Shown piece after piece: positions 20,111 to 58,129 of a stretch of DNA of 64,000 nucleotides. The DNA lies in NCBI GenBank assembly GCA_946699065.1, contig CAMPDV010001074.1:78285-142284 (forward strand), given 5' to 3'. This stretch comes from Loxodes magnus (Eukaryota; Ciliophora; Karyorelictea; Loxodida; Loxodidae). Every line of letters begins with the position of its first letter. Positions within the stretch are counted from its first letter, which is position 1. A program made the position numbers and the translations under genes. The notes under the pieces were generated by a model. That model was given only the letters and a program-made list of their open reading frames with translations. It searched no databases and was not told the DNA's origin.

Positions 20111-20689
20111 TAGCAATTAGGTTTAAGATTAAAGACTTAGAGATGATTAATTAGTTATAGGTTTAATTAGTAATAATTAAGTAATCTTATATCTTTATTT
20201 CTATTTTAACTTTTAAACTCTTTAGTGATTCTTCATTTGAACTAATTACTCTTAATAAGAAAGCTAATAAGCTGGCTATTTAATAAGAATAGTTCTAAAT
20301 TAATGAATTAAGGAGTAAAATTGTATAGATTACTTCTAGAGATATATTAGTTGAGTGTTATAATAGAACTAGAATAGCTAGAATTTGATTAATAGAAGTA
20401 TTAATGATAGTATACAAATTAGTATCTTAGTTATATTTTATATTACATCTATATAGACTAGTTATATGTACTTGGATAGTTACTTTATATATCCATTTAC
20501 TAGTCTAATAATTAGAAAATTATTTAATTTCTTATTTAGAGACTTCATTTTTAAATATTGGTAAATGATTCTAATATTTTATGTTTTTGGTACTTTAATA
20601 AGCATTAAGTATCTCTTTAATATTTTGGATTAATTAGTTTATTCCTATATTTTTTAACTGCTTACCTTATTTTCATTTAGAGTTTTCCT
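20111..20689. other. AT-rich spacer
   Basis: No supported gene on either strand. Confidence 0.4.
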
Positions 20690-24575: not shown

Positions 24576-25059
24576 GAGAGGTTAATTAAATCTAGCTTAG
24601 TATTTGAATGGTTCTTTAATTTAATTCTAGCAGATATTAATTTAATAGAAGTAAACTGTAATATTAGACATTTTATTATTAAGCTTTTAGATTTTACTTT
24701 CCCTTGTGTATAAAATTTCTAAATAAAGCTTTAAGCATTAGTAGCTAGCTAGTATTTAAGTTTTGAAAATAATAGGTAATTCATATATATTAGTTACATT
24801 TACTTAGGAGTCTCTTAATTTAATATTTCTACTTCTACTAATTTATTAATTTTCCTTTTATATTAGAACTATTAATAAGGATTAAATCATATTAAAACTC
24901 TTTCATATCCTTATTTAAGATCTGCAATCGTAACCAGCATCATTTTAATAAAAAAGTAGTCAAATGTAATATATTGTAATTTGGTTTTATTCTTATTAAC
25001 TTTTATTCATAATTCCTATTTTGCTAATTTCTAGTTTAGGATTTAGTTGTTTTATGGAA
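24576..25059. other. Upstream flank of P2
   Basis: Up to about 24770 the sequence resembles the upstream flank of gene P (7200-7400). The remainder is AT-rich with no gene. Confidence 0.4.
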
Positions 25060-27430
25060 ACCTTCAAGTACCTCTTATTTCTAATATTAAGCTTAAAGAG
25101 CCTTTATTATAATAAGCTTTTGAATACCCAAGATTAAGTTAGATAGCTTTATTACAGTAATCAATTACTTCAGAACATTTTCTTAGCTTTTACAGGAGGA
25201 AGCCTTTATGCTTGTAGGAATTTGGGAAAGTAGAATTATAATAAATAGCTAAATTAAAACTCTCAATGGCTTCATTGTTCTTATCTAGTTTATTCATTGC
25301 AGATCCCTTTTTGTTATACAAAACTTCATTATTAAAATCCAAATTAATAGCTGTATCATAGCATTATATAGCTTAGTTTAATTTTTCTTACTTGTAAAGG
25401 GCATCTCCTTTGTTTTTTACGAAATATTTCATTATAAGAATCAAGTTTTATAGTTACATCACAACTCTCTTAAGCTTCAACGTATTTGCCTTATTAGTAA
25501 AGTTTTTCTCCTTTCTTAATTTAAAATGAAGCTTTTATGGAATCCAAATGAGTAGCAATATCATAGCTTTATTTAGCTTTGTTGATTTTTCCTTATTATT
25601 AAAGTATATTTGCTTGATTATTGAAATATTTAATTATAAGGATCAATCTCTACCGCTTTATCAAAGTTCTATTCAGCTTTATTCCCTTGTTTTTTCAGTG
25701 TGGATCCCTTGTTACTACATAAGATTGCATTATATGAGTCTAACCTAATAGCCTTATCATATTATTAAAGAGCTTCTTTTATTATCCTTAATTTAATGTT
25801 TAGATCGAGCAACCTCTTAAGGTATTCAACAGATAAGATTCTTTTTATAAGTTATTACAATCAGCTAACACCATATCTTATAAAACATATTTCATTTTCT
25901 TATTATTCAAACTCAAACAAGCTAGATAGTCTTCCTATTAATTTTTCTTCAAGAGTTTGGATTCAATTTGAGGCCTTTCTTAGTTATAGAATTCAATTAA
26001 GCAATTCCAAATTTGATTTCCGCCATTCTTAAATCTTTAAAGTTATTTTATCATTTAAATAATAAAAGTAGTAGTAATAATAAAGATTTAGACTATCTTA
26101 AATATATTATTTGCAAGACATATAAATCTACTATAATAGAAGCAAGATACTTAGATACACTAATAATCCAAATAGTATAATAATAGTACTATACTTCTAA
26201 TATATAAATAAGATAATATTTAAGTAACAGTGTTAAGGATAATAGAGAGACTAAGATTAATAAGTAAATCTTTAAGTTAACAGTTATTAATAAGCAAGTT
26301 GGATAGTTTAGTTAATAAGCAAACTAAATTCAACCCTTTAATTATTATCATTAGATAATCCTAAGATTAGTTAGAAAAGAGTTTAATCAATCTAACTTCA
26401 TCTAATTAATCAACTAAGCTATAGGATTCGATTATTCACAACATAAGAAAGACTTAAATTATAAAGTAACCATAGTAGCTAATACTTAATAATAAGATAC
26501 AACTATTAATACTAATATCATAGTTAAAGCTATAATTAAAGGCATCTAATAAATAACCAACTAATAATCCTTTCAATTAAATAAGAAACTAAAAGTAATT
26601 TAGTATTTTATTTTGATAAAGTAGCTAATCAATATTAATCCTTTATTTAAGTGCCTGTTTGCCTTAAGCATTTTTATTAAGATGATATATTTTAGACTTT
26701 TAGGATTTATTGAAATAACCTGAAACACTATTAATAAAGTTAGTTTAGGTACCTTTAGCTTCATAATAAGGTTAGCTTGGTAGTAGAAGATGATGGTTAG
26801 ATTATGATATATAAAAATGGTATTTAAGGGAGGGTTATAATATCTTATAATGGTGTTTTGTAAGAATGAATGATCTTAATTATTCTAGAGTTTAATGATT
26901 TATATGATAATTGGAATTATTTAAAGGGTCAATCTATTTAGTATGTCTTCCTAACCTAATTTTAGTATTTTAGCTACTTTCTTAAGTAAACTATATTCTT
27001 TATTTTTTAGCTTTTATCCAAGCCTCTGTTATTTTGCCCCAGCACAAATTTATAAAGTCTAAGCTTTAAGATGCTAAGTATTAGTTTAAAGCCACATATC
27101 GATTAGATTGTTTCTTAACATCATCAAATAAAGATTATTTAGTTTATATCTTGATACTAAGAGCAATTTAGATAATATCTATACAGATATAGATAAGTAT
27201 TAGAGATATTAAGAATTAGACTATTATTATTTACACTATTATAACCAACCTAGATTTATCATACTAGCCAATAAAAAACACATTATTATTAAGCTATATT
27301 CATATTTCTTCAAATCATACACATTTTACCAAAACTAATTTCATATCCAAATTCATTCTTACTTTACTATTTAAGATACTACTATATATCTTATGCCTTA
27401 TATTCTTACTATCATATTTAATATCAAACC
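24950..27430. repeat. Inverted repeat, left arm
   Basis: This segment is similar, in reverse complement, to about 59190-61870. Good anchors are the stretch around 27170-27220 (AATATCTCTAATACTTATCT on the minus strand) against 59525-59570, and 26060-26160 against 60880-61000 (ATATGTCTTGCAAATAATAT). The arms have diverged by many substitutions and indels, so the duplication is old. Each arm begins just past a kinase 3' end. Confidence 0.7.
25060..26026 (-). pseudogene. TPR gene, frameshifted (arm copy 1)
   Basis: The minus strand begins ATGGCGGAAATC at 26026 (MAEIKFGIAQLN) and continues into TPR units (EALQQYDKAIRLDSYNAI, SNKGSTLKKQGNKAEQNFDK, DPYN). At least two frameshifts break the repeats (near 25640 and 25440). 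An inverted homologue with the same start (MAGIKFRIAQLN) lies at 61024-61795. In this code the absence of TAA/TAG stops makes long frames cheap; the shifts are seen by the TPR pattern changing frame. Confidence 0.65.
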
Positions 27431-27471
27431 AAATATGTTTATTACAATTATCAATACTTTAATTTAAATTT

Positions 27472-30400
27472 TCATTGTTTTTACTTCTATCTCTCATTAC
27501 CAAATTCCTAATTCCCCTAATTCTTATTCATCCAGTCTTACTCTTTTACCCCTTGAGAAATCTACAACCTTTGCATTCCTACTTCAGTATTACCCTACGT
27601 CATCTAGAAGCCTTACTATTACACCTGATTGATTTTCTACTCTTCTTTTGATAGCCTATGAGTATTTATCTCCTGTTAATATTGCTAAACTTGCTAAAAC
27701 TACCCTTATTATTAGTATATCTGTCTCCATTTTTACTTTATTTAATCTATTTACTTTTTAAAACTGTAAATATCAGGTCTTTTGGACTAATCATAGCTAA
27801 AGCATTAGAGCAATAATTGAGTTAGTTCTGGTTCTTAAGTTATCTCATTTGAAAACGAGGGAATTTTATTATCCACGCAAATAGCTTTCGTGATTTATGC
27901 CTATGTACTTAGGTCTGGAAAAGGTAAACGCTCATTGAAAATTTCTACTGCTATGCAAGCAAGAGATCATATATCACTTTTCTAGCTTACCTTGTTGTCA
28001 AACAGCTCAGGAGCCATTCATTGAAAAGATCCTCTAGATTCTAATGTAGTAGTAACGTTAGCTTCACTAACTAGTCCAAGGTCTGCAATTTTAGGAGAAT
28101 CGCTATCATCCAATAAGATGTTTAATGATTTGAGATCTCTATGAACTAGATTCTTAGAATGAATAGCTTGTACACCTTCAGAAATTTAGCTGACTAAATT
28201 AAGTTTTCTGAAATATCTAGTTGGGGATTCTTTTGGTCAATCAGAAAACAATTACTAAGATTTGATTACATTGTATAAGCTTCCTTTAGACATATAATCA
28301 GTCAAGAGACAGAAGATGTAATTTCCTTAATTGGAAGTATCAATAGATACTCCTAGGATTCTTAGAACTCTTAGATTATTTACTGATAACAGAGCTTTGC
28401 ATTCTAGAAAAAAATCGTCTATAAGCTTTTGTAAATTTGCTGCTGGGTTAAACTTTTTAAGTGCATATTCTTATCCCTATATATTTATAAGATAAACTGT
28501 GCTAAAACCACCCTAACCTAAAATTTTTAAGTTGGATAAAAATAATTAACTTGGAATCAAATTTTTGTAATTTCAGATTCGTATTTGAGATCTTATATCT
28601 AATCCTGCCCCATTTTAATATAAAATTTGTCAGATATCGCTCAAACTAATTTATGTTTAAGCTTAAAAATAAAGCTTATCTTCTTACTTTTAAGGAATAA
28701 AAATTTAAGGTCTAAGATTAGAATCAGGATAAATAATATTTTGAGCCAAATTAGAAGAAGTTAAGCTTTAGATTCTTTAGATTTAGTTTTAACGACTATT
28801 AGCCAAGTTTGGGTTAAGTTTTATAGCTATGTTCAAACTCTCAAGGGCTTCTACATGTCTTCCCAAACTGCTAAGAGAACTTCCTTTGTTGGAATGTGCG
28901 CCTGCATTATTGGGATCAATTTTTATTGCTATGTTTTAACTCTCAAGGGCTTCTACATATCTTCCCAAATTGTTAAGAGTACTTACTTTGTTGGAATGTG
29001 CGCCAGCTTTATTGGGATCAATTTTTATTGCTATGTTCAAACTCTCAAGGGCTTCTACATGTCTTCCCAAACTGTTAAGAGAACTTCCTTTGTTGGAATG
29101 AGAGTAAGCATTATTGGGATCAAGTTTTATAGCTATGTTCAAACTCTCAAGGGCTTCTACATATCTTCCCAATCTGATAAGAGAATCTCCTTTGTTGGAA
29201 TGAGAGTAAGCATTATTGGGATCAAGTTTTATAGCTATGTTCAAACTCTCAAGGGCTTCTACATATCTTCCCAATCTGATAAGAGAATCTCCTTTGTTGG
29301 AATGAGAGTAAGCATTATTGGGATCAAGTTTTATAGCTATGTTCAAACTCTCAAGGGCTTCTACATATCTTCCCAATCTGATAAGAGAATCTCCTTTGTT
29401 GGAATGAGAGTAAGCATTATTGGGATCAATTTTTATTGCTATGTTCAAACTCTCAAGGGCTTCTACAAGTCTTCCCAAACTGCTAAGAGAACTTCCTTTG
29501 TTGGAATGTGCGATAGCATTATTGGGATCAAGTTTTATAGCTATGTTCAAACTCTCAAGGGCTTCTACATATCTTCCCAATCTGATAAGAGAATCTCCTT
29601 TGTTGGAATGAGAGTAAGCATTATTGGGATCAATTTTTATTGCTATGTTCAAACTCTCAAGGGCTTCTACAAGTCTTCCCAAACTGCTAAGAGAACTTCC
29701 TTTGTTGGAATGTGCGATAGCATTATTGGGATCAAGTTTTATAGCTATGTTCAAACTCTCAAGGGCTTCTACATATCTTCCCAAACTGTTAAGAGAACTT
29801 CCTTTGTTGGAATGTGCGATAGCATTATTGGGATCAAGTTTTATAGCTATGTTCAAACTCTCAAGGGCTTCTACATATCTTCCCAATCTGATAAGAGAAT
29901 CTCCTTTGTTGGAATGAGAGTAAGCATTATTGGGATCAATTTTTATTGCTATGTTCAAACTCTCAAGGGCTTCTACATGTCTTCCCAAACTGTTAAGAGA
30001 ACTTCCTTTGTTGGAATGTGCGATAGCATTATTGGGATCAAGTTTTATAGCTATGTTCAAACTCTCAAGGGCTTCTACATATCTTCCCAAACTGTTAAGA
30101 GAACTTCCTTTGTTGGAATGTGCGATAGCATTATTGGGATCAAGTTTTATAGCTATGTTCAAACTCTCAAGGGCTTCTACATATCTTCCCAATCTGATAA
30201 GAGAATCTCCTTTGTTGGAATGAGAGTAAGCATTATTGGGATCAATTTTTATTGCTATGTTCAAACTCTCAAGGGCTTCTACAAGTCTTCCCAAACTGCT
30301 AAGAGAACTTCCTTTGTTGGAATGTGCGATAGCATTATTGGGATCAAGTTTTATAGCTATGTTCAAACTCTCAAGGGCTTCTACATATCTTCCCAATCTG

Positions 30401-33400
30401 ATAAGAGAATCTCCTTTGTTGGAATGAGAGTAAGCATTATTGGGATCAATTTTTATTGCTATGTTCAAACTCTCAAGGGCTTCTACATGTCTTCCCAAAC
30501 TGTTAAGAGAACTTCCTTTGTTGGAATGTGCGATAGCATTATTGGGATCAAGTTTTATAGCTATGTTATAACTCTCAATGGCTTCTACATATCTTCCCAA
30601 TCTGATAAGAGAATCTCCTTTGTTGGAATGTGCGATAGCATTATTGGGATCAAGTTTTATAGCTATGTTCAAACTCTCAAGGGCTTCTACATATCTTCCC
30701 AAACTGTTAAGAGAACTTCCTTTGTTGGAATGTGCGATAGCATTATTGGGATCAAGTTTTATAGCTATGTTCAAACTCTCAAGGGCTTCTACATATCTTC
30801 CCAATCTGATAAGAGAATCTCCTTTGTTGGAATGAGAGTAAGCATTATTGGGATCAAGTTTTATAGCTATGTTCAAACTCTCAAGGGCTTCTACATGTCT
30901 TCCCAAACTGTTAAGAGAACTTCCTTTGTTGGAATGTGCGATAGCATTATTGGGATCAAGTTTTATAGCTATGTTCAAACTCTCAAGGGCTTCTACATGT
31001 CTTCCCAAACTGTTAAGAGAACTTCCTTTGTTGGAATGAGAGTAAGCATTATTGGGATCAAGTTTTATAGCTATGTTCAAACTCTCAAGGGCTTCTACAT
31101 ATCTTCCCAATCTGATAAGAGAATCTCCTTTGTTGGAATGAGAGTAAGCATTATTGGGATCAATTTTTATTGCTATGTTCAAACTCTCAAGGGCTTCTAC
31201 ATGTCTTCCCAAACTGTTAAGAGAACTTACTTTGTTGGAATGTGCGATAGCTTTATTGGGATCAATTTTTATTGCTATGTTCAAACTCTCAAGGGCTTCT
31301 ACATGTCTTCCCAAACTGTTAAGAGAACTTCCTTTGTTGGAATGAGAGTAAGCATTATTGGGATCAAGTTTTATAGCTATGTTCAAACTCTCAAGGGCTT
31401 CTACATATCTTCCCAATCTGATAAGAGAATCTCCTTTGTTGGAATGAGAGTAAGCATTATTGGGATCAATTTTTATTGCTATGTTCAAACTCTCAAGGGC
31501 TTCTACAAGTCTTCCCAAACTGCTAAGAGAACTTCCTTTGTTGGAATGTGCGATAGCATTATTGGGATCAAGTTTTATAGCTATGTTCAAACTCTCAAGG
31601 GCTTCTACATATCTTCCCAATCTGATAAGAGAATCTCCTTTGTTGGAATGAGAGTAAGCATTATTGGGATCAATTTTTATTGCTATGTTCAAACTCTCAA
31701 GGGCTTCTACAAGTCTTCCCAAACTGCTAAGAGAACTTCCTTTGTTGGAATGTGCGATAGCATTATTGGGATCAAGTTTTATAGCTATGTTCAAACTCTC
31801 AAGGGCTTCTACATATCTTCCCAAACTGTTAAGAGAACTTCCTTTGTTGGAATGTGCGATAGCATTATTGGGATCAAGTTTTATAGCTATGTTCAAACTC
31901 TCAAGGGCTTCTACATATCTTCCCAATCTGATAAGAGAATCTCCTTTGTTGGAATGAGAGTAAGCATTATTGGGATCAATTTTTATTGCTATGTTCAAAC
32001 TCTCAAGGGCTTCTACAAGTCTTCCCAAACTGCTAAGAGAACTTCCTTTGTTGGAATGTGCGATAGCATTATTGGGATCAAGTTTTATAGCTATGTTCAA
32101 ACTCTCAAGGGCTTCTACATATCTTCCCAAACTGTTAAGAGAACTTCCTTTGTTGGAATGTGCGATAGCATTATTGGGATCAAGTTTTATAGCTATGTTC
32201 AAACTCTCAAGGGCTTCTACATATCTTCCCAATCTGATAAGAGAATCTCCTTTGTTGGAATGAGAGTAAGCATTATTGGGATCAATTTTTATTGCTATGT
32301 TCAAACTCTCAAGGGCTTCTACATGTCTTCCCAATCTGATAAGAGAATCTCCTTTGTTGGAATGAGAGTAAGCATTATTGGGATCAAGTTTTATAGCTAT
32401 GTTCAAACTCTCAAGGGCTTCTACATATCTTCCCAATCTGATAAGAGATCAAGATAGCTATGTTCAAACTCTCAAGGGAATCTCCTTTGTTGGAATGAGA
32501 GTAAGATTATTGAGCTAGTAAGGGCTTCTACATGTCTTCCCAATCTGATAAGAGAATCCTTTGTTGGAATGAGAGTAAGCATTATTGGGATCAAGTTTTA
32601 TAGCTATGTTCAAACTCTCAAGGGCTTCTACATATCTTCCCAATCTGATAAGAGAATCTCCTTTGTTGGAATGAATAAGCATTATTGGGATCAATTTTTA
32701 TTGCTATGTTCAAACTCTCAAGGGTTAAGAGAATCTCCTTTGAATGAGAGTAAGCATTATTGGGATCAATTTTTATTGCTATGTTCAAACTCTCAAGGGC
32801 TTCTACATGTCTTCCCAAACTGTTAAGAGAACTTCCTTTGTTGGAATGTGCGATAGCATTATTGGGATCAAGTTTTATAGCTATGTTCAAACTCTCAAGG
32901 GCTTCTACATGTCTTCCCAAACTGTTAAGAGAACTTCCTTTGTTGGAATGTGCGATAGCATTATTGGGATCAAGTTTTATAGCTATGTTCAAACTCTCAA
33001 GGGCTTCTACATATCTTCCCAAACTGTTAAGAGAACTTCCTTTGTTGGAATGTGCGATAGCATTATTGGGATCAAGTTTTATAGCTATGTTCAAACTCTC
33101 AAGGGCTTCTACATATCTTCCCAAACTGTTAAGAGAACTTCCTTTGTTGGAATGTGCGATAGCATTATTGGGATCAAGTTTTATAGCTATGTTCAAACTC
33201 TCAAGGGCTTCTACATATCTTCCCAATCTGATAAGAGAATCTCCTTTGTTGGAATGAGAGTAAGCATTATTGGGATCAATTTTTATTGCTATGTTCAAAC
33301 TCTCAAGGGCTTCTACATATCTTCCCAAACTGTTAAGAGAATCTCCTTTGTTGGAATGTGCGATAGCATTATTGGGATCAAGTTTTATAGCTATGTTCAA

Positions 33401-36400
33401 ACTCTCAAGGGCTTCTACATATCTTCCCAATCTGATAAGAGAACTTCCTTTGTTGGAATGTGCGATAGCATTATTGGGATCAAGTTTTATAGCTATGTTC
33501 AAACTCTCAAGGGCTTCTACATATCTTCCCAATCTGATAAGAGAATCTCCTTTGTTGGAATGAGAGTAAGCATTATTGGGATCAATTTTTATTGCTATGT
33601 TCAAACTCTCAATGGCTTCTACATGTCTTCCCAAACTGCTAAGAGAACTTCCTTTGTTGGAATGTGCGATAGCATTATTGGGATCAAGTTTTATAGCTAT
33701 GTTCAAACTCTCAAGGGCTTCTACATATCTTCCCAATCTGATAAGAGAATCTCCTTTGTTGGAATGAGAGTAAGCATTATTGGGATCAATTTTTATTGCT
33801 ATGTTCAAACTCTCAAGGGCTTCTACATGTCTTCCCAAACTGTTAAGAGAACTTCCTTTGTTGGAATGTGCGATAGCATTATTGGGATCAAGTTTTATAG
33901 CTATGTTCAAACTCTCAAGGGCTTCTACATGTCTTCCCAAACTGTTAAGAGAACTTCCTTTGTTGGAATGTGCGATAGCATTATTGGGATCAAGTTTTAT
34001 AGCTATGTTCAAACTCTCAAGGGCTTCTACATATCTTCCCAATCTGATAAGAGAATCTCCTTTGTTGGAATGAGAGTAAGCATTATTGGGATCAATTTTT
34101 ATTGCTATGTTCAAACTCTCAATGGCTTCTACATGTCTTCCCAAACTGTTAAGAGAACTTCCTTTGTTGGAATGTGCGATAGCATTATTGGGATCAAGTT
34201 TTATAGCTATGTTCAAACTCTCAAGGGCTTCTACATATCTTCCCAAACTGTTAAGAGAACTTCCTTTGTTGGAATGTGCGATAGCATTATTGGGATCAAG
34301 TTTTATAGCTATGTTCAAACTCTCAAGGGCTTCTACATGTCTTCCCAAACTGTTAAGAGAACTTCCTTTGTTGGAATGTGCGATAGCATTATTGGGATCA
34401 AGTTTTATAGCTATGTTCAAACTCTCAAGGGCTTCTACATGTCTTCCCAAACTGTTAAGAGAACTTCCTTTGTTGGAATGTGCGATAGCATTATTGGGAT
34501 CAAGTTTTATAGCTATGTTCAAACTCTCAAGGGCTTCTACATATCTTCCCAAACTGTTAAGAGAACTTCCTTTGTTGGAATGTGCGATAGCATTATTGGG
34601 ATCAAGTTTTATAGCTATGTTCAAACTCTCAAGGGCTTCTACATATCTTCCCAAACTGTTAAGAGAACTTCCTTTGTTGGAATGTGCGATAGCATTATTG
34701 GGATCAAGTTTTATAGCTATGTTCAAACTCTCAAGGGCTTCTACATATCTTCCCAATCTGATAAGAGAATCTCCTTTGTTGGAATGAGAGTAAGCATTAT
34801 TGGGATCAATTTTTATTGCTATGTTCAAACTCTCAAGGGCTTCTACATATCTTCCCAAACTGTTAAGAGAACTTCCTTTGTTGGAATGTGCGATAGCATT
34901 ATTGGGATCAAGTTTTATAGCTATGTTCAAACTCTCAAGGGCTTCTACATATCTTCCCAATCTGATAAGAGAATCTCCTTTGTTGGAATGTGCGATAGCA
35001 TTATTGGGATCAAGTTTTATAGCTATGTTCAAACTCTCAAGGGCTTCTACATATCTTCCCAATCTGATAAGAGAACTTCCTTTGTTGGAATGTGCGATAG
35101 CATTATTGGGATCAAGTTTTATAGCTATGTTCAAACTCTCAAGGGCTTCTACATATCTTCCCAATCTGATAAGAGAATCTCCTTTGTTGGAATGAGAGTA
35201 AGCATTATTGGGATCAATTTTTATTGCTATGTTCAAACTCTCAATGGCTTCTACATGTCTTCCCAAACTGCTAAGAGAACTTCCTTTGTTGGAATGTGCG
35301 ATAGCATTATTGGGATCAAGTTTTATAGCTATGTTCAAACTCTCAAGGGCTTCTACATATCTTCCCAATCTGATAAGAGAATCTCCTTTGTTGGAATGAG
35401 AGTAAGCATTATTGGGATCAATTTTTATTGCTATGTTCAAACTCTCAAGGGCTTCTACATGTCTTCCCAAACTGTTAAGAGAACTTCCTTTGTTGGAATG
35501 TGCGATAGCATTATTGGGATCAAGTTTTATAGCTATGTTCAAACTCTCAAGGGCTTCTACATGTCTTCCCAAACTGTTAAGAGAACTTCCTTTGTTGGAA
35601 TGTGCGATAGCATTATTGGGATCAAGTTTTATAGCTATGTTCAAACTCTCAAGGGCTTCTACATATCTTCCCAAACTGTTAAGAGAACTTCCTTTGTTGG
35701 AATGTGCGATAGCATTATTGGGATCAAGTTTTATAGCTATGTTCAAACTCTCAAGGGCTTCTACATATCTTCCCAATCTGATAAGAGAATCTCCTTTGTT
35801 GGAATGAGAGTAAGCATTATTGGGATCAATTTTTATTGCTATGTTCAAACTCTCAAGGGCTTCTACATGTCTTCCCAAACTGTTAAGAGAACTTCCTTTG
35901 TTGGAATGTGCGATAGCATTATTGGGATCAAGTTTTATAGCTATGTTCAAACTCTCAAGGGCTTCTACATATCTTCCCAATCTGATAAGAGAATCTCCTT
36001 TGTTGGAATGTGCGATAGCATTATTGGGATCAAGTTTTATAGCTATGTTCAAACTCTCAAGGGCTTCTACATATCTTCCCAATCTGATAAGAGAACTTCC
36101 TTTGTTGGAATGTGCGATAGCATTATTGGGATCAAGTTTTATAGCTATGTTCAAACTCTCAAGGGCTTCTACATATCTTCCCAATCTGATAAGAGAATCT
36201 CCTTTGTTGGAATGAGAGTAAGCATTATTGGGATCAATTTTTATTGCTATGTTCAAACTCTCAATGGCTTCTACATGTCTTCCCAAACTGTTAAGAGAAC
36301 TTCCTTTGTTGGAATGTGCGATAGCATTATTGGGATCAAGTTTTATAGCTATGTTCAAACTCTCAAGGGCTTCTACATATCTTCCCAATCTGATAAGAGA

Positions 36401-39400
36401 ATCTCCTTTGTTGGAATGAGAGTAAGCATTATTGGGATCAATTTTTATTGCTATGTTCAAACTCTCAAGGGCTTCTACATGTCTTCCCAAACTGTTAAGA
36501 GAACTTCCTTTGTTGGAATGTGCGATAGCATTATTGGGATCAAGTTTTATAGCTATGTTCAAACTCTCAAGGGCTTCTACATGTCTTCCCAAACTGTTAA
36601 GAGAACTTCCTTTGTTGGAATGTGCGATAGCATTATTGGGATCAAGTTTTATAGCTATGTTCAAACTCTCAAGGGCTTCTACATATCTTCCCAAACTGTT
36701 AAGAGAACTTCCTTTGTTGGAATGTGCGATAGCATTATTGGGATCAAGTTTTATAGCTATGTTCAAACTCTCAAGGGCTTCTACATATCTTCCCAATCTG
36801 ATAAGAGAATCTCCTTTGTTGGAATGAGAGTAAGCATTATTGGGATCAATTTTTATTGCTATGTTCAAACTCTCAAGGGCTTCTACATGTCTTCCCAAAC
36901 TGTTAAGAGAACTTCCTTTGTTGGAATGTGCGATAGCATTATTGGGATCAAGTTTTATAGCTATGTTCAAACTCTCAAGGGCTTCTACATATCTTCCCAA
37001 ACTGTTAAGAGAACTTCCTTTGTTGGAATGTGCGATAGCATTATTGGGATCAAGTTTTATAGCTATGTTCAAACTCTCAAGGGCTTCTACATATCTTCCC
37101 AATCTGATAAGAGAATCTCCTTTGTTGGAATGAGAGTAAGCATTATTGGGATCAATTTTTATTGCTATGTTCAAACTCTCAAGGGCTTCTACAAGTCTTC
37201 CCAAACTGCTAAGAGAACTTCCTTTGTTGGAATGTGCGATAGCATTATTGGGATCAAGTTTTATAGCTATGTTCAAACTCTCAAGGGCTTCTACATATCT
37301 TCCCAATCTGATAAGAGAATCTCCTTTGTTGGAATGAGAGTAAGCATTATTGGGATCAATTTTTATTGCTATGTTCAAACTCTCAAGGGCTTCTACATGT
37401 CTTCCCAAACTGTTAAGAGAACTTCCTTTGTTGGAATGTGCGATAGCATTATTGGGATCAAGTTTTATAGCTATGTTCAAACTCTCAAGGGCTTCTACAT
37501 ATCTTCCCAATCTGATAAGAGAATCTCCTTTGTTGGAATGTGCGATAGCATTATTGGGATCAAGTTTTATAGCTATGTTCAAACTCTCAAGGGCTTCTAC
37601 ATATCTTCCCAATCTGATAAGAGAACTTCCTTTGTTGGAATGTGCGATAGCATTATTGGGATCAAGTTTTATAGCTATGTTCAAACTCTCAAGGGCTTCT
37701 ACATATCTTCCCAATCTGATAAGAGAATCTCCTTTGTTGGAATGAGAGTAAGCATTATTGGGATCAATTTTTATTGCTATGTTCAAACTCTCAAGGGCTT
37801 CTACATGTCTTCCCAAACTGTTAAGAGAACTTCCTTTGTTGGAATGTGCGATAGCATTATTGGGATCAAGTTTTATAGCTATGTTCAAACTCTCAAGGGC
37901 TTCTACATATCTTCCCAAACTGTTAAGAGAACTTCCTTTGTTGGAATGTGCGATAGCATTATTGGGATCAAGTTTTATAGCTATGTTCAAACTCTCAAGG
38001 GCTTCTACATGTCTTCCCAAACTGTTAAGAGAACTTCCTTTGTTGGAATGAGAGTAAGCATTATTGGGATCAATTTTTATTGCTATGTTCAAACTCTCAA
38101 GGGCTTCTACATATCTTCCCAATCTGATAAGAGAATCTCCTTTGTTGGAATGAGAGTAAGCATTATTGGGATCAATTTTTATTGCTATGTTCAAACTCTC
38201 AATGGCTTCTACATGTCTTCCCAAACTGTTAAGAGAACTTCCTTTGTTGGAATGTGCGATAGCATTATTGGGATCAAGTTTTATAGCTATGTTCAAACTC
38301 TCAAGGGCTTCTACATGTCTTCCCAAACTGTTAAGAGAACTTCCTTTGTTGGAATGTGCGATAGCATTATTGGGATCAAGTTTTATAGCTATGTTCAAAC
38401 TCTCAAGGGCTTCTACATATCTTCCCAATCTGATAAGAGAATCTCCTTTGTTGGAATGTGCGATAGCATTATTGGGATCAAGTTTTATAGCTATGTTCAA
38501 ACTCTCAAGGGCTTCTACATATCTTCCCAATCTGATAAGAGAATCTCCTTTGTTGGAATGAGAGTAAGCATTATTGGGATCAATTTTTATTGCTATGTTC
38601 AAACTCTCAAGGGCTTCTACATGTCTTCCCAAACTGTTAAGAGAACTTCCTTTGTTGGAATGTGCGATAGCATTATTGGGATCAAGTTTTATAGCTATGT
38701 TCAAACTCTCAAGGGCTTCTACATGTCTTCCCAAACTGTTAAGAGAACTTCCTTTGTTGGAATGTGCGATAGCATTATTGGGATCAAGTTTTATAGCTAT
38801 GTTCAAACTCTCAAGGGCTTCTACATATCTTCCCAAACTGTTAAGAGAACTTCCTTTGTTGGAATGTGCGATAGCATTATTGGGATCAAGTTTTATAGCT
38901 ATGTTCAAACTCTCAAGGGCTTCTACATATCTTCCCAATCTGATAAGAGAATCTCCTTTGTTGGAATGAGAGTAAGCATTATTGGGATCAATTTTTATTG
39001 CTATGTTCAAACTCTCAAGGGCTTCTACATGTCTTCCCAAACTGTTAAGAGAACTTCCTTTGTTGGAATGTGCGATAGCATTATTGGGATCAAGTTTTAT
39101 AGCTATGTTCAAACTCTCAAGGGCTTCTACATATCTTCCCAAACTGTTAAGAGAACTTCCTTTGTTGGAATGTGCGATAGCATTATTGGGATCAAGTTTT
39201 ATAGCTATGTTCAAACTCTCAAGGGCTTCTACATGTCTTCCCAAACTGTTAAGAGAACTTCCTTTGTTGGAATGAGAGTAAGCATTATTGGGATCAATTT
39301 TTATTGCTATGTTCAAACTCTCAAGGGCTTCTACATATCTTCCCAATCTGATAAGAGAATCTCCTTTGTTGGAATGAGAGTAAGCATTATTGGGATCAAT

Positions 39401-42400
39401 TTTTATTGCTATGTTCAAACTCTCAATGGCTTCTACATGTCTTCCCAAACTGTTAAGAGAACTTCCTTTGTTGGAATGTGCGATAGCATTATTGGGATCA
39501 AGTTTTATAGCTATGTTCAAACTCTCAAGGGCTTCTACATGTCTTCCCAAACTGTTAAGAGAACTTCCTTTGTTGGAATGTGCGATAGCATTATTGGGAT
39601 CAAGTTTTATAGCTATGTTCAAACTCTCAAGGGCTTCTACATGTCTTCCCAAACTGTTAAGAGAACTTCCTTTGTTGGAATGTGCGATAGCATTATTGGG
39701 ATCAAGTTTTATAGCTATGTTCAAACTCTCAAGGGCTTCTACATGTCTTCCCAAACTGTTAAGAGAACTTCCTTTGTTGGAATGTGCGATAGCATTATTG
39801 GGATCAAGTTTTATAGCTATGTTCAAACTCTCAAGGGCTTCTACATATCTTCCCAAACTGTTAAGAGAACTTCCTTTGTTGGAATGTGCGATAGCATTAT
39901 TGGGATCAAGTTTTATAGCTATGTTCAAACTCTCAAGGGCTTCTACATATCTTCCCAAACTGTTAAGAGAACTTCCTTTGTTGGAATGTGCGATAGCATT
40001 ATTGGGATCAAGTTTTATAGCTATGTTCAAACTCTCAAGGGCTTCTACATATCTTCCCAATCTGATAAGAGAATCTCCTTTGTTGGAATGAGAGTAAGCA
40101 TTATTGGGATCAATTTTTATTGCTATGTTCAAACTCTCAAGGGCTTCTACATATCTTCCCAAACTGTTAAGAGAACTTCCTTTGTTGGAATGTGCGATAG
40201 CATTATTGGGATCAAGTTTTATAGCTATGTTCAAACTCTCAAGGGCTTCTACATATCTTCCCAATCTGATAAGAGAATCTCCTTTGTTGGAATGTGCGAT
40301 AGCATTATTGGGATCAAGTTTTATAGCTATGTTCAAACTCTCAAGGGCTTCTACATATCTTCCCAATCTGATAAGAGAACTTCCTTTGTTGGAATGTGCG
40401 ATAGCATTATTGGGATCAAGTTTTATAGCTATGTTCAAACTCTCAAGGGCTTCTACATATCTTCCCAATCTGATAAGAGAATCTCCTTTGTTGGAATGAG
40501 AGTAAGCATTATTGGGATCAATTTTTATTGCTATGTTCAAACTCTCAATGGCTTCTACATGTCTTCCCAAACTGCTAAGAGAACTTCCTTTGTTGGAATG
40601 TGCGATAGCATTATTGGGATCAAGTTTTATAGCTATGTTCAAACTCTCAAGGGCTTCTACATATCTTCCCAATCTGATAAGAGAATCTCCTTTGTTGGAA
40701 TGAGAGTAAGCATTATTGGGATCAATTTTTATTGCTATGTTCAAACTCTCAAGGGCTTCTACATGTCTTCCCAAACTGTTAAGAGAACTTCCTTTGTTGG
40801 AATGTGCGATAGCATTATTGGGATCAAGTTTTATAGCTATGTTCAAACTCTCAAGGGCTTCTACATGTCTTCCCAAACTGTTAAGAGAACTTCCTTTGTT
40901 GGAATGTGCGATAGCATTATTGGGATCAAGTTTTATAGCTATGTTCAAACTCTCAAGGGCTTCTACATATCTTCCCAATCTGATAAGAGAATCTCCTTTG
41001 TTGGAATGAGAGTAAGCATTATTGGGATCAATTTTTATTGCTATGTTCAAACTCTCAATGGCTTCTACATGTCTTCCCAAACTGCTAAGAGAACTTCCTT
41101 TGTTGGAATGTGCGATAGCATTATTGGGATCAAGTTTTATAGCTATGTTCAAACTCTCAAGGGCTTCTACATATCTTCCCAATCTGATAAGAGAATCTCC
41201 TTTGTTGGAATGAGAGTAAGCATTATTGGGATCAATTTTTATTGCTATGTTCAAACTCTCAAGGGCTTCTACATGTCTTCCCAAACTGTTAAGAGAACTT
41301 CCTTTGTTGGAATGTGCGATAGCATTATTGGGATCAAGTTTTATAGCTATGTTCAAACTCTCAAGGGCTTCTACATGTCTTCCCAAACTGTTAAGAGAAC
41401 TTCCTTTGTTGGAATGTGCGATAGCATTATTGGGATCAAGTTTTATAGCTATGTTCAAACTCTCAAGGGCTTCTACATATCTTCCCAATCTGATAAGAGA
41501 ATCTCCTTTGTTGGAATGAGAGTAAGCATTATTGGGATCAATTTTTATTGCTATGTTCAAACTCTCAAGGGCTTCTACATGTCTTCCCAAACTGTTAAGA
41601 GAACTTCCTTTGTTGGAATGTGCGATAGCATTATTGGGATCAAGTTTTATAGCTATGTTCAAACTCTCAAGGGCTTCTACATATCTTCCCAAACTGTTAA
41701 GAGAACTTCCTTTGTTGGAATGTGCGATAGCATTATTGGGATCAAGTTTTATAGCTATGTTCAAACTCTCAAGGGCTTCTACATATCTTCCCAATCTGAT
41801 AAGAGAATCTCCTTTGTTGGAATGAGAGTAAGCATTATTGGGATCAATTTTTATTGCTATGTTCAAACTCTCAAGGGCTTCTACAAGTCTTCCCAAACTG
41901 CTAAGAGAACTTCCTTTGTTGGAATGTGCGATAGCATTATTGGGATCAAGTTTTATAGCTATGTTCAAACTCTCAAGGGCTTCTACATATCTTCCCAATC
42001 TGATAAGAGAATCTCCTTTGTTGGAATGAGAGTAAGCATTATTGGGATCAATTTTTATTGCTATGTTCAAACTCTCAAGGGCTTCTACATATCTTCCCAA
42101 ACTGTTAAGAGAACTTCCTTTGTTGGAATGTGCGATAGCATTATTGGGATCAAGTTTTATAGCTATGTTCAAACTCTCAAGGGCTTCTACATATCTTCCC
42201 AATCTGATAAGAGAATCTCCTTTGTTGGAATGTGCGATAGCATTATTGGGATCAAGTTTTATAGCTATGTTCAAACTCTCAAGGGCTTCTACATATCTTC
42301 CCAATCTGATAAGAGAACTTCCTTTGTTGGAATGTGCGATAGCATTATTGGGATCAAGTTTTATATCTATGTTCAAACTCTCAAGGGCTTCTACATATCT

Positions 42401-45400
42401 TCCCAAACTGTTAAGAGAATCTCCTTTGTTGGAATGTGCGATAGCATTATTGGGATCAATTTTTATTGCTATGTTCAAACTCTCAAGGGCTTCTACATAT
42501 CTTCCCAATCTGATAAGAGAATCTCCTTTGTTGGAATGAGAGTAAGCATTATTGGGATCAATTTTTATTGCTATGTTCAAACTCTCAAGGGCTTCTACAT
42601 GTCTTCCCAAACTGTTAAGAGAACTTCCTTTGTTGGAATGTGCGATAGCATTATTGGGATCAAGTTTTATAGCTATGTTCAAACTCTCAAGGGCTTCTAC
42701 ATGTCTTCCCAAACTGTTAAGAGAACTTCCTTTGTTGGAATGTGCGATAGCATTATTGGGATCAAGTTTTATAGCTATGTTCAAACTCTCAAGGGCTTCT
42801 ACATATCTTCCCAATCTGATAAGAGAATCTCCTTTGTTGGAATGTGCGATAGCATTATTGGGATCAAGTTTTATAGCTATGTTCAAACTCTCAAGGGCTT
42901 CTACATATCTTCCCAATCTGATAAGAGAATCTCCTTTGTTGGAATGAGAGTAAGCATTATTGGGATCAATTTTTATTGCTATGTTCAAACTCTCAAGGGC
43001 TTCTACATGTCTTCCCAAACTGTTAAGAGAACTTCCTTTGTTGGAATGTGCGATAGCATTATTGGGATCAAGTTTTATAGCTATGTTCAAACTCTCAAGG
43101 GCTTCTACATGTCTTCCCAAACTGTTAAGAGAACTTCCTTTGTTGGAATGTGCGATAGCATTATTGGGATCAAGTTTTATAGCTATGTTCAAACTCTCAA
43201 GGGCTTCTACATATCTTCCCAATCTGATAAGAGAATCTCCTTTGTTGGAATGAGAGTAAGCATTATTGGGATCAATTTTTATTGCTATGTTCAAACTCTC
43301 AAGGGCTTCTACATGTCTTCCCAAACTGTTAAGAGAACTTCCTTTGTTGGAATGTGCGATAGCATTATTGGGATCAAGTTTTATAGCTATGTTCAAACTC
43401 TCAAGGGCTTCTACATATCTTCCCAATCTGATAAGAGAATCTCCTTTGTTGGAATGAGAGTAAGCATTATTGGGATCAAGTTTTATAGCTATGTTTTAAC
43501 TCTCAATGGCTTCTACATGTCTTCCCAAACTGTTAAGAGAACTTCCTTTGTTGGAATATGCGATAGCATTATTGGGATCAAGTTTTATAGCTATGTTCAA
43601 ACTCTCAAGGGCTTCTACATATCTTCCCAATCTGATAAGAGAATCTCCTTTGTTGGAATGAGAGTAAGCATTATTGGGATCAATTTTTATTGCTATGTTC
43701 AAACTCTCAAGGGCTTCTACATATCTTCCCAAACTGTTAAGAGAACTTCCTTTGTTGGAATGTGCGATAGCATTATTGGGATCAAGTTTTATAGCTATGT
43801 TCAAACTCTCAAGGGCTTCTACATATCTTCCCAATCTGATAAGAGAATCTCCTTTGTTGGAATGTGCGATAGCATTATTGGGATCAAGTTTTATAGCTAT
43901 GTTCAAACTCTCAAGGGCTTCTACATATCTTCCCAATCTGATAAGAGAACTTCCTTTGTTGGAATGTGCGATAGCATTATTGGGATCAAGTTTTATAGCT
44001 ATGTTCAAACTCTCAAGGGCTTCTACATGTCTTCCCAAACTGTTAAGAGAACTTCCTTTGTTGGAATATGCGATAGCATTATTGGGATCAAGTTTTATAG
44101 CTATGTTCAAACTCTCAAGGGCTTCTACATATCTTCCCAAACTGTTAAGAGAACTTCCTTTGTTGGAATGTGCGATAGCATTATTGGGATCAATTTTTAT
44201 TGCTATGTTCAAACTCTCAAGGGCTTCTACATGTCTTCCCAAACTGTTAAGAGAACTTCCTTTGTTGGAATGTGCGATAGCATTATTGGGATCAAGTTTT
44301 ATAGCTATGTTCAAACTCTCAAGGGCTTCTACATATCTTCCCAATCTGATAAGAGAATCTCCTTTGTTGGAATGAGAGTAAGCATTATTGGGATCAATTT
44401 TTATTGCTATGTTCAAACTCTCAAGGGCTTCTACAAGTCTTCCCAATCTGATAAGAGAATCTCCTTTGTTGGAATGAGAGTAAGCATTATTGGGATCAAT
44501 TTTTATTGCTATGTTCAAACTCTCAAGGGCTTCTACATGTCTTCCCAAACTGTTAAGAGAACTTCCTTTGTTGGAATGTGCGATAGCATTATTGGGATCA
44601 AGTTTTATAGCTATGTTCAAACTCTCAAGGGCTTCTACATGTCTTCCCAAACTGTTAAGAGAACTTCCTTTGTTGGAATGTGCGATAGCATTATTGGGAT
44701 CAAGTTTTATAGCTATGTTCAAACTCTCAAGGGCTTCTACATATCTTCCCAATCTGATAAGAGAATCTCCTTTGTTGGAATGTGCGATAGCATTATTGGG
44801 ATCAAGTTTTATAGCTATGTTCAAACTCTCAAGGGCTTCTACATATCTTCCCAATCTGATAAGAGAACTTCCTTTGTTGGAATGTGCGATAGCATTATTG
44901 GGATCAAGTTTTATAGCTATGTTCAAACTCTCAAGGGCTTCTACATGTCTTCCCAAACTGTTAAGAGAACTTCCTTTGTTGGAATATGCGATAGCATTAT
45001 TGGGATCAAGTTTTATAGCTATGTTCAAACTCTCAAGGGCTTCTACATATCTTCCCAAACTGTTAAGAGAACTTCCTTTGTTGGAATGTGCGATAGCATT
45101 ATTGGGATCAATTTTTATTGCTATGTTCAAACTCTCAAGGGCTTCTACATGTCTTCCCAAACTGTTAAGAGAACTTCCTTTGTTGGAATGTGCGATAGCA
45201 TTATTGGGATCAAGTTTTATAGCTATGTTCAAACTCTCAAGGGCTTCTACATATCTTCCCAATCTGATAAGAGAATCTCCTTTGTTGGAATGAGAGTAAG
45301 CATTATTGGGATCAATTTTTATTGCTATGTTCAAACTCTCAATGGCTTCTACATGTCTTCCCAAACTGTTAAGAGAACTTCCTTTGTTGGAATGTGCGAT

Positions 45401-48400
45401 AGCATTATTGGGATCAAGTTTTATAGCTATGTTCAAACTCTCAAGGGCTTCTACATATCTTCCCAATCTGATAAGAGAACTTCCTTTGTTGGAATGAGAG
45501 TAAGCATTATTGGGATCAAGTTTTATAGCTATGTTTTAACTCTCAATGGCTTCTACATGTCTTCCCAAACTGTTAAGAGAACTTCCTTTGTTGGAATGTG
45601 CGATAGCATTATTGGGATCAAGTTTTATAGCTATGTTCAAACTCTCAAGGGCTTCTACATATCTTCCCAATCTGATAAGAGAATCTCCTTTGTTGGAATG
45701 AGAGTAAGCATTATTGGGATCAATTTTTATTGCTATGTTCAAACTCTCAATGGCTTCTACATGTCTTCCCAAACTGTTAAGAGAACTTCCTTTGTTGGAA
45801 TGTGCGATAGCATTATTGGGATCAAGTTTTATAGCTATGTTCAAACTCTCAAGGGCTTCTACATATCTTCCCAATCTGATAAGAGAATCTCCTTTGTTGG
45901 AATGAGAGTAAGCATTATTGGGATCAATTTTTATTGCTATGTTCAAACTCTCAAGGGCTTCTACATGTCTTCCCAAACTGTTAAGAGAACTTCCTTTGTT
46001 GGAATGTGCGATAGCATTATTGGGATCAAGTTTTATAGCTATGTTCAAACTCTCAAGGGCTTCTACATATCTTCCCAATCTGATAAGAGAACTTCCTTTG
46101 TTGGAATGAGAGTAAGCATTATTGGGATCAATTTTTATTGCTATGTTCAAACTCTCAAGGGCTTCTACATGTCTTCCCAAACTGTTAAGAGAACTTCCTT
46201 TGTTGGAATGTGCGATAGCATTATTGGGATCAAGTTTTATAGCTATGTTCAAACTCTCAAGGGCTTCTACATATCTTCCCAATCTGATAAGAGAATCTCC
46301 TTTGTTGGAATGAGAGTAAGCATTATTGGGATCAATTTTTATTGCTATGTTCAAACTCTCAATGGCTTCTACATGTCTTCCCAAACTGTTAAGAGAACTT
46401 CCTTTGTTGGAATGTGCGATAGCATTATTGGGATCAAGTTTTATAGCTATGTTCAAACTCTCAAGGGCTTCTACATATCTTCCCAATCTGATAAGAGAAC
46501 TTCCTTTGTTGGAATGAGAGTAAGCATTATTGGGATCAAGTTTTATAGCTATGTTTTAACTCTCAATGGCTTCTACATGTCTTCCCAAACTGTTAAGAGA
46601 ACTTCCTTTGTTGGAATGTGCGATAGCATTATTGGGATCAAGTTTTATAGCTATGTTCAAACTCTCAAGGGCTTCTACATATCTTCCCAATCTGATAAGA
46701 GAACTTCCTTTGTTGGAATGAGAGTAAGCATTATTGGGATCAAGTTTTATAGCTATGTTTTAACTCTCAATGGCTTCTACATGTCTTCCCAAACTGTTAA
46801 GAGAACTTCCTTTGTTGGAATGTGCGATAGCATTATTGGGATCAAGTTTTATAGCTATGTTCAAACTCTCAAGGGCTTCTACATATCTTCCCAATCTGAT
46901 AAGAGAATCTCCTTTGTTGGAATGAGAGTAAGCATTATTGGGATCAATTTTTATTGCTATGTTCAAACTCTCAATGGCTTCTACATGTCTTCCCAAACTG
47001 TTAAGAGAACTTCCTTTGTTGGAATGTGCGATAGCATTATTGGGATCAAGTTTTATAGCTATGTTCAAACTCTCAAGGGCTTCTACATATCTTCCCAATC
47101 TGATAAGAGAACTTCCTTTGTTGGAATGAGAGTAAGCATTATTGGGATCAAGTTTTATTGCTATGTTCAAACTCTCAAGGGCTTCTACATGTCTTCCCAA
47201 ACTGTTAAGAGAACTTCCTTTGTTGGAATGTGCGATAGCATTATTGGGATCAAGTTTTATAGCTATGTTCAAACTCTCAAGGGCTTCTACATATCTTCCC
47301 AATCTGATAAGAGAACTTCCTTTGTTGGAATGAGAGTAAGCATTATTGGGATCAAGTTTTATAGCTATGTTCAAACTCTCAAGGGCTTCTACATATCTTC
47401 CCAAACTGTTAAGAGAACTTCCTTTGTTGGAATGTGCGATAGCATTATTGGGATCAAGTTTTATAGCTATGTTTTAACTCTCAATGGCTTCTACATGTCT
47501 TCCCAAACTGTTAAGAGAACTTCCTTTGTTGGAATGTGCGATAGCATTATTGGGATCAAGTTTTATAGCTATGTTCAAACTCTCAAGGGCTTCTACATAT
47601 CTTCCCAATCTGATAAGAGAACTTCCTTTGTTGGAATGTGCGATAGCATTATTGGGATCAAGTTTTATAGCTATGTTCAAACTCTCAAGGGCTTCTACAT
47701 ATCTTCCCAATCTGATAAGAGAACTTCCTTTGTTGGAATGAGAGTAAGCATTATTGGGATCAAGTTTTATAGCTATGTTTTAACTCTCAATGGCTTCTAC
47801 ATGTCTTCCCAAACTGTTAAGAGAACTTCCTTTGTTGGAATGTGCGATAGCATTATTGGGATCAAGTTTTATAGCTATGTTCAAACTCTCAAGGGCTTCT
47901 ACATATCTTCCCAATCTGATAAGAGAATCTCCTTTGTTGGAATGAGAGTAAGCATTATTGGGATCAATTTTTATTGCTATGTTCAAACTCTCAAGGGCTT
48001 CTACATGTCTTCCCAAACTGTTAAGAGAACTTCCTTTGTTGGAATGTTCGATAGCATTATTGGGATCAAGTTTTATAGCTATGTTCAAACTCTCAAGGGC
48101 TTCTACATATCTTCCCAATCTGATAAGAGAACTTCCTTTGTTGGAATGAGAGTAAGCATTATTGGGATCAAGTTTTATAGCTATGTTTTAACTCTCAATG
48201 GCTTCTACATGTCTTCCCAAACTGTTAAGAGAACTTCCTTTGTTGGAATGTGCGATAGCATTATTGGGATCAAGTTTTATAGCTATGTTTTAACTCTCAA
48301 TGGCTTCTACATGTCTTCCCAAACTGTTAAGAGAACTTCCTTTGTTGGAATGTGCGATAGCATTATTGGGATCAAGTTTTATAGCTATGTTCAAACTCTC

Positions 48401-49186
48401 AAGGGCTTCTACATATCTTCCCAATCTGATAAGAGAACTTCCTTTGTTGGAATGTGCGATAGCATTATTGGGATCAAGTTTTATAGCTATGTTCAAACTC
48501 TCAAGGGCTTCTACATATCTTCCCAATCTGATAAGAGAACTTCCTTTGTTGGAATGAGAGTAAGCATTATTGGGATCAAGTTTTATAGCTATGTTTTAAC
48601 TCTCAATGGCTTCTACATGTCTTCCCAAACTGTTAAGAGAACTTCCTTTGTTGGAATGTGCGATAGCATTATTGGGATCAAGTTTTATAGCTATGTTCAA
48701 ACTCTCAAGGGCTTCTACATATCTTCCCAATCTGATAAGAGAATCTCCTTTGTTGGAATGAGAGTAAGCATTATTGGGATCAATTTTTATTGCTATGTTC
48801 AAACTCTCAAGGGCTTCTACATGTCTTCCCAAACTGTTAAGAGAACTTCCTTTGTTGGAATGTGCGATAGCATTATTGGGATCAAGTTTTATAGCTATGT
48901 TTTAACTCTCAATGGCTTCTACATGTCTTCCCAAACTGTTAAGAGAACTTCCTTTGTTGGAATGTGCGATAGCATTATTGGGATCAAGTTTTATAGCTAT
49001 GTTCAAACTCTCAAGGGCTTCTACATATCTTCCCAATCTGATAAGAGAATCTCCTTTGTTGGAATGTGCGATAGCATTATTGGGATCATTTTTTATAGCT
49101 ATGTTCAAACTCTCAAGAGCTTCTACGTGTTGACCCATCTAACTCAGTGATGCAGCTATGTTTATAAGGTTGCTAGCTTTGTACAT
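27472..49186 (-). CDS. Giant TPR-array protein kinase (gene B)
   Basis: The N-terminus starts at ATG 49186 (MYKASNLINIAASLSQMGQH) and runs straight into TPR units of exactly 34 codons, consensus GRYVEALESLNIAIKLDP followed by NNAIAHSNKGSSLNSL. The frame is continuous from 49186 to about 32745 (161 units). From 32436 down, 35 more units, a Gln-containing linker and the kinase share one frame ending at TGA 27472-27474. A disordered stretch at 32440-32745 makes the two parts out of frame in this sequence. The kinase (27780-28570) has YALKKF, HRDLKSLN, DLG in place of DFG (still Asp), GSFQWMAPE and SDIWSLA, so it should be active. Full length would be about 7,200 residues. TAA occurs as Gln at a few unit ends (ESQNIAIK). 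No signal peptide or membrane segment is seen. The role is inferred: a very long superhelical scaffold carrying a TKL kinase. Confidence 0.85.
28830..49140 (-). repeat. 102-bp tandem array encoding about 196 TPRs
   Basis: Some 20.3 kb of head-to-tail 102-bp units differ at only a handful of positions: Tyr/His/Leu after GR, Leu/Ile in IK[LI]DPNNA, IAH/YSH, GSSL/GDSL, and NSL/IRL/SSL. Units are arranged in higher-order blocks. The 1,020-bp block at 34800-35819 recurs at 35820-36839; 34086-35399 recurs 5,304 bp later at 39390-40703; a block marked by GGAATATGC recurs 918 bp apart (44063 and 44981). From about 45300 a two-unit, 204-bp rhythm dominates. Near-identity including silent sites implies recent expansion or continual gene conversion. 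Confidence 0.95.
32440..32745 (-). other. Disordered, frame-breaking stretch inside the TPR array
   Basis: Reading along the minus strand against the regular unit, there are losses of 4 and 23 bases (net in frame), then 2, 2 and 26 bases, then an insertion of 31 bases that is itself a unit fragment. The net change moves the frame, separating the N-terminal 161 TPRs from the C-terminal 35 TPRs and kinase. Nowhere else in 20 kb is the 102-bp period broken. Confidence 0.85.
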
Positions 49187-58060: not shown

Positions 58061-58129
58061 TTAATCCTGCCTAAAACCTAAATTCTTATTGTTTTCTTAA
58101 AAGAAAGAAGAAAGCTCAAATTAATAAAA

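Follow-up and report, generated by a model that had tools for sequence, protein, structure and literature searches.

A tetratricopeptide-repeat array kinase of the ciliate Loxodes magnus as a putative hypervariable recognition protein

A window of 64,000 nucleotides from the ciliate Loxodes magnus (assembly GCA_946699065.1, contig CAMPDV010001074.1, positions 78,285 to 142,284) carries on its (-) strand a gene, hereafter gene B, that starts with an ATG at 49186 and ends with a putative TGA stop at 27474-27472. It encodes a protein kinase domain preceded by an atypical first repeat (N-cap), a very long array of tetratricopeptide repeats (TPRs) and a linker, and followed by a tail. We tentatively interpret gene B as a hypervariable TPR-array recognition kinase that turns over by unequal exchange, a reading to which we give slightly less than an even chance of being correct. 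It draws on the following patterns in the assembled sequence: the same gene, with the same N-cap, C-cap and kinase, is present as 13 contig copies; between the caps, array length and the set of unit types change much faster than does the kinase; and amino-acid differences between units cluster on the concave TPR face, other positions varying less. An earlier note on this DNA, written without knowledge of the frame break described below or of the other copies, had listed a rapidly evolving recognition protein among the possible roles of gene B; this suggestion gains support from the prevalence of copy-specific unit types, an exchange junction at the array and the face-focused variation.

Organisation of gene B

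The array is periodic at 102 bp between 28809 and 49126 and consists of intron-free open sequence coding for 34-residue units. In total, 198 TPR units are detectable, spaced by exactly 102 bp in 195 of 197 cases and falling into 30 distinct types at the DNA and 29 at the protein level, with mean identities between units of 93.7% (nucleotide) and 88.1% (amino acid); three of these units score 82.1 bits against PF00515 (TPR_1; cut-off 27.8), which assigns them to the TPRs. The ATG and the N-cap occupy 49082..49186 (translation and unit parse), and the other contig copies of gene B start with the same N-cap leader, with small changes. As judged from the 102-bp spacing in frame 0, the first 161 units lie in a single frame (32762..49183); they are followed by a damaged patch (32430..32761) holding remnants of ~3-4 units, recognized from its spacings and from alignment to the unit types, in which the frame is shifted by 1, and then by the last 35 intact units (28810..32379; spacing and unit parse), which share the frame of the kinase. 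The kinase domain itself (27727..28545, placed by the position of its PF00069 match) is preceded by the array-kinase linker (28546..28809) and followed by a Q-rich C-terminal tail (27475..27726), both defined by translation, and by the putative TGA stop (27472..27474), a codon that also reads as Trp upstream. The G+C content is ~37% in the array (window 28001-48000) versus 21-31% across the remaining window. We rejected the long open frame as evidence of coding: the plus strand is also open, for 5,468 codons, and because any frame lacking a stop stays open across repeats of 102 bp, the length of the frame is by itself uninformative.

The two spacings that depart from 102 bp (175 and 207, at ~32.80-32.42 kb) sum to 382 bases (3n+1), and therefore 161 units are in one frame, while the terminal 37, of which 35 are intact, share another with the kinase. 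Alignment of the patch (~32.43-32.80 kb) to the unit types revealed several separate deletions and one insertion; outside it, no spacing in the array differs from 102 bp. We read the patch as local read or consensus damage, the alternative being a real rearrangement; the former is supported by single-base indels in the 3' flank of the copies C2916 and C2996 (copies are named here by their contigs), a flank that is identical in 11 other copies. The earlier note had described a TKL kinase of about 7,200 residues with about 196 near-identical units of 34 codons. The near-identical units, the array and the C-terminal kinase are all borne out; the frame, as assembled, is not single, and the exact copy number is unreliable.

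The C-terminal domain classifies as a eukaryotic-type protein kinase, with a score of 152.1 bits against PF00069 (Pkinase; cut-off 31.7), and the usual, putatively catalytic motifs are legible in its sequence: Lys, αC Glu, HRD, DLG in place of DFG, and APE. Among the best 60 of 1,259 solved-structure matches, EGFR, CSK, MAP3K2, TAK1, IRAK4, CTR1 and B-Raf are mixed; since tyrosine kinases and TKL kinases are thereby combined, the TKL label of the domain is not settled. TAA and TAG are read as Gln in gene B, and two TGA codons in the kinase sit at conserved Trp positions. A plain table-6 reading was rejected on account of these two codons and of the genome paper, which gives code table 27 for L. 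magnus, with TGA as stop or Trp (PMC11441545).

Copies of gene B and the length of their arrays

The assembly that we scanned comprises 705,730,643 bases in 7,843 contigs. A kinase-domain search scored 141 of 4,540 candidates, all 141 of which matched, and the 13 best matches (89-93% amino-acid identity) are the contig copies of gene B; the window's own copy is reported at only 93% because 19 of its 273 codons are stop-type. These 13 copies also carry the 3' flank at full length (98-100%), with 27 further partial matches at 80-96%, and the genome contains 785 occurrences of a pattern for the unit core and none of its reversed control. The copies C1119a and C2957 have all unit types in common and identical kinases, C1119b and C4229 have all unit types in common, and C2916 and C2996 have identical kinases; on this comparison some of the 13 contigs are redundant or nearly so.

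Arrays were read in all copies except C2996, 12 in total. Nine of them hold 9-24 units (C2672, 9; C2916, 11; C1119a and C2957, 12 each; C1598, 13; C2127, C1119b and C4229, 14 each; C2893, 24), and three are giants, namely the window (198 units), C2205 (~184) and C2124, whose array counts at least 256 units, is cut off by the end of the stretch read and is probably partly misassembled. Variation in repeat number between copies, one mark of repeats with high internal conservation (HIC), thus spans 9 to ~198 units within a single genome. Another mark, identity above 85% over at least 100 residues, is reached by the three giants (mean pairwise amino-acid identity between units of 88.1% in the window, 86.9% in C2124 and 89.0% in C2205), and the nine short arrays (72-85%) lie below it.

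This variation bears directly on the proposal in the earlier note that gene B might act as a molecular ruler; on this reading a rod-like superhelix of fixed length would space cell structures. Uniform 34-residue TPR units should stack regularly, and superhelix geometry puts the rod at roughly 0.18 micrometre; copies whose kinases are 93-100% identical nevertheless carry from 9 to ~200 units, a more than 20-fold difference, so that the length is anything but fixed and a ruler is now very improbable.

How far the giant lengths can be trusted is a separate question. PacBio HiFi reads were assembled by Falcon, with the overlap threshold set to 96%, into the L. magnus macronuclear (MAC) assembly (706 Mbp), whose authors attribute differences in assembly size to misassembly of low-complexity repeats (PMC11441545); for these reasons the exact unit number of gene B is not trustworthy. 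In the extreme case, a real gene with tens of units would have been inflated by overlaps in a false register, and off-register overlaps of at least 96% identity, which such an artefact would exploit, do occur in all three giants. At 5 kb and 8 kb, respectively, they are seen for 10 of 147 and 0 of 117 lags in the window, for 30 of 128 and 14 of 98 in C2205, and for 5 of 200 and 3 of 170 in C2124. By this measure the length of C2205, with more such overlaps, is less protected than that of the window. An exact run of 67 units moreover recurs in C2124, 143 units further on. No long stretch, however, is used twice in the window, where identical units recur in runs of at most 13 (of 198), or in C2205 (fewer than 6 of 179), and we regard wholesale inflation as unlikely. 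The C2124 array shows many spacings of 101 or 103 bp in addition to the exact repeat and is probably misassembled. Given that repeat, C2124, whose hits reach at least down to C2124:21143, was rejected as the longest array and not used as a length.

Tempo of change and exchange among copies

In contrast to the arrays, the kinases of the 13 copies are 93-100% identical at the DNA level. The dN/dS of the window kinase is 0.06 against C2672, which has only 9 units, and 0.07 against C2124; other kinase pairs reach 0.65, and pairs with C1119b, which is frameshifted close to where the compared stretch ends, up to 1.2. Most arrays carry unit types of their own: the window array has 8 in common with C2124 and none with the 10 other arrays, and C2205 has 2 in common with C4229 and C1119b. 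The comparison between C2205 and C4229 illustrates the difference in tempo, since their kinases are 99.6% identical, yet their arrays count 184 versus 14 units and have just these 2 types in common.

C2205 also provides a case of exchange. Its 5' flank is closest to that of C2127 (98.5%), and its kinase is closest to that of C4229, a copy with which it has only 91.1% identity in the 5' flank; because 5' flank and kinase are of different ancestry, C2205 is a recombinant with a junction within or adjoining the array. The possibility that C2205 and C4229 are alleles was rejected, their 5' flanks being 91-93% identical. Among 11 copies, the 5' flanks are 86-100% identical, and flank identity is only weakly correlated with kinase identity (Spearman 0.28; 55 pairs).

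The 3' end of gene B and its flank (26230..27675, (-) strand) differ little or not at all when the copies are compared: the final 1.2 kb of this segment are identical in 11 of 13 copies and 99.5% identical in the remaining two. We initially considered a sharply bounded invariant cassette, a notion that had to be softened, as the adjoining 2.8 kb downstream are likewise 98-100% identical in all 13 copies. The whole region 23500-27675 of the window (3' end of gene B plus flank) varies far less (98-100%) than the 5' flank and the kinase, and diversity, as far as these copies tell, is simply lower downstream of gene B.

Variation between units is concentrated on the predicted binding face

In TPR proteins, ligands are contacted through positions 2, 5, 6, 9, 12 and 13 of the unit, and the most variable, concave positions are 2, 5, 9, 12, 13, 33 and 34 (PMC1261162). 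We pooled the distinct units of ten arrays (n=162), omitting C2957 and C4229 as duplicates and dropping array ends and units adjoining odd spacings; C2916 and C1119a have 5 unit types in common and are hence not independent in this pool. Of the variants at the six contact positions, 21 are nonsynonymous and 2 synonymous, versus 22 and 16 at the others, corresponding to pN/pS of 2.10 and 0.40 (Fisher p=0.005, for a contrast of the face with the rest and not a test against 1). The seven concave positions gave 19 nonsynonymous and 3 synonymous variants versus 24 and 15 elsewhere (p=0.037), and in permutation tests the face showed the higher entropy (p=0.0001 and 0.0007). The entropy contrast holds within single giant arrays (p=0.012 and 0.020 in the window).

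The same pattern recurs outside the 13 copies. Contig C1412 encodes a kinase that is 62% identical to that of gene B and is preceded by a near-identical TPR array, of which 24 units were read (14 distinct, 91.8% DNA identity; the kinase-proximal units are divergent). Its varying positions are 1, 2, 5, 9, 12, 13 and 34, together with 15, 23 and, weakly, a few others; the entropy at the seven concave positions was reached by none of 20,000 permutations, and the ratio of nonsynonymous to synonymous variants is 10:1 at concave positions versus 4:5 at the rest (p=0.038) and 9:1 at the six contact positions versus 5:5 (p=0.070). Homogenised arrays in front of such kinases therefore arose in more than one subfamily.

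A multivalent scaffold, in which many equivalent sites gather copies of a partner around the kinase and additional units raise avidity, would explain why the units are so numerous and so alike (30 DNA types among 198), but equivalent sites require neither variation focused on the face nor unit types specific to each copy, and we consider such a role quite improbable.

Several observations weigh against a recognition kinase. The contrast in variant counts is not significant within single giant arrays (p=0.20 in the window, 0.23 and 0.31 in C2124, 0.085 and 0.13 in C2205); concave position 33 is invariant in the pooled set; and positions off the face vary as well, notably 24, 3, 21, 10, 17 and 30. 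Part of the face pattern may be due to relaxed constraint, because TPRs in general tolerate the most variation at concave positions (PMC1261162). Some kinase pairs, each involving C1119b, have dN/dS near or above 1, and as assembled the frame is intact in none of the three giant copies, versus seven of the nine short ones. The case for recognition is, finally, a pattern in sequence only.

Some of these points would suit a runaway coding minisatellite, whose giants are neutral expansions by slippage and unequal exchange, or frameshifted pseudogenes, of functionless length and composition; such expansion would be tolerated because a 102-bp unit keeps the frame. Non-triplet spacings are found in 5 of 12 arrays, including all three giants (1 in the window, 1 in C2205, 12 in C2124), off-face variation in the window array is not clearly constrained (pN/pS 0.78-0.80), and the window holds further TPR-kinase-like stretches that are at least partly broken across frames. 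The rate of non-triplet spacings in the window (1 per ~20 kb) and in C2205 (1 per ~19 kb) is, however, not above that of seven distinct short arrays (4 in ~10 kb), although it is high in C2124, and some of the indels are sequence errors, as illustrated by one low-quality copy with single-base indels in flanks that are identical in 11 others. Neither the face bias nor the low kinase dN/dS of two giant copies would be predicted for junk, and the 24 near-identical units read in C1412 lie within an open frame of 2,156 codons. A minisatellite is thus a possible, though somewhat unlikely, explanation.

If gene B is instead a recognition kinase, the array would serve as a modular sensor in which the combination of unit types sets the binding specificity and is kept changing by unequal exchange and gene conversion. 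The C-terminal kinase, as the signalling output, would be controlled by ligands bound along the array, and selection would favour new combinations of faces. Unit number itself is unlikely to be selected; the giants would represent the far end of the length distribution of an unstable array whose length is weakly constrained. Candidate targets of recognition are self/non-self, prey, and a symbiont or parasite.

Gene A and other TPR-kinase stretches

Gene A (9952..12666, (-) strand) served as a control. As the earlier note had stated, it lies next to gene B and has ~16 TPR units; these are divergent and are followed by a kinase. Its unit number is constant: 14 copies (3 of 17 fetched loci were omitted) align over the ~1.4 kb TPR part with hardly a gap, pairs involving the window or C2124 copy being 96.6-99.9% identical there. 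Gene A and ordinary TPR proteins share the 34-residue unit with gene B, and gene A has in addition a kinase of the same family; unlike in gene B, their units are divergent and fixed in number. TPR proteins usually have 2 to 20 units (PMC7279152).

Further TPR-kinase-like stretches, with 22-57% identity to gene A, are found on both strands of the window at 16000-18150, 18737-20436, 24885-25794 and 56999-59154. Those at 57-59 kb are scattered over several frames, and at least some look decayed; the segment 17029-18150 (+) keeps to a single frame throughout its 382-residue match to gene A. A Pfam search with ten other table-6 frames of the window was negative at E 0.01. Elsewhere in the genome, contigs C57, C752, C676 and C213 contain additional spaced TPR matches in long open frames (837 codons in C57), separate from the copies of gene B.

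Relation to known systems and significance

Receptors with near-identical repeats are best described from fungal NOD-like receptors (NLRs), with ~10-20 repeats (PMC4986451, PMC12222747). The fungal NLR/STAND proteins with HIC repeats of WD40, ANK or TPR type (such as Podospora HNWD and HET-D, E and R) resemble gene B in their near-identical repeats, their variation in repeat number and their association with a signalling domain (PMC4986451, PMC12222747, PMC2873952), as well as in concerted evolution and variation at the interaction surface, including versions with TPRs. In these fungal proteins positive selection acts at predicted interaction surfaces, those of the TPR type included (PMC4986451), hypervariable sites occur within conserved repeats (PMC12222747), and mutants with altered recognition carry spontaneous array rearrangements (PMC2873952). 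Gene B differs in that a kinase replaces the nucleotide-binding domain, the order is reversed (repeats are N-terminal), and the units number up to ~200, versus 2 to over 14 TPRs in Podospora (PMC4986451). The fungal NLRs have a recognition role, that of gene B being putative. A Pfam comparison of the C-terminal 479 residues and of three gene B units gave neither a NACHT nor an NB-ARC match, and because no nucleotide-binding domain was found we place gene B outside the fungal NLR class. On the evidence so far it may work like the fungal HIC receptors without being a member, and the recognition mechanism proposed above is modelled on them by analogy.

The nearest parallel among ciliates is provided by the leucine-rich repeat (LRR) genes of Tetrahymena, arrays of 90-bp exons whose close paralogues contain 1 to 51 exons and undergo ectopic recombination between repeats, so that repeat number varies widely, as in gene B (PMC6564038). 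In Tetrahymena, however, the repeats are LRRs and each unit is an exon with flanking phase-2 introns (PMC6564038), whereas the repeats of gene B are TPRs of 102 bp in intron-free sequence, linked to a kinase; this places gene B outside the Tetrahymena LRR gene class.

None of the best-ranked literature matches describes a giant TPR kinase from a ciliate, the sole match for Loxodes together with tetratricopeptide concerns the radial spokes of Tetrahymena, and the words 'tetratricopeptide', 'TPR' and 'kinase' do not occur in the main text of the L. magnus genome paper (PMC11441545). The hypervariable repeat receptor would thus be of a kind already known, and its giant, kinase-linked ciliate form would be new. 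A broader proposition, rather doubtful at present, is that Loxodes carries a large, fast-diversifying repertoire of intracellular TPR-kinase receptors, NLR-like or allorecognition-like but of independent origin, in which up to ~200 swappable units would give specificity and the kinase would read it out.

Should the giants prove to be untranscribed or short, the giant form would be a minisatellite or an artefact, and the variability of the short copies would remain. If they are expressed, a ciliate would be employing diversification in the style of fungal NLRs with a kinase output and at a far larger size. Since one genome holds both a 9-unit and a ~200-unit version of the same gene, the effect of repeat number and unit order on recognition would then be directly testable, as would the question of how a cell makes a solenoid kinase with an estimated mass of ~0.8 MDa.

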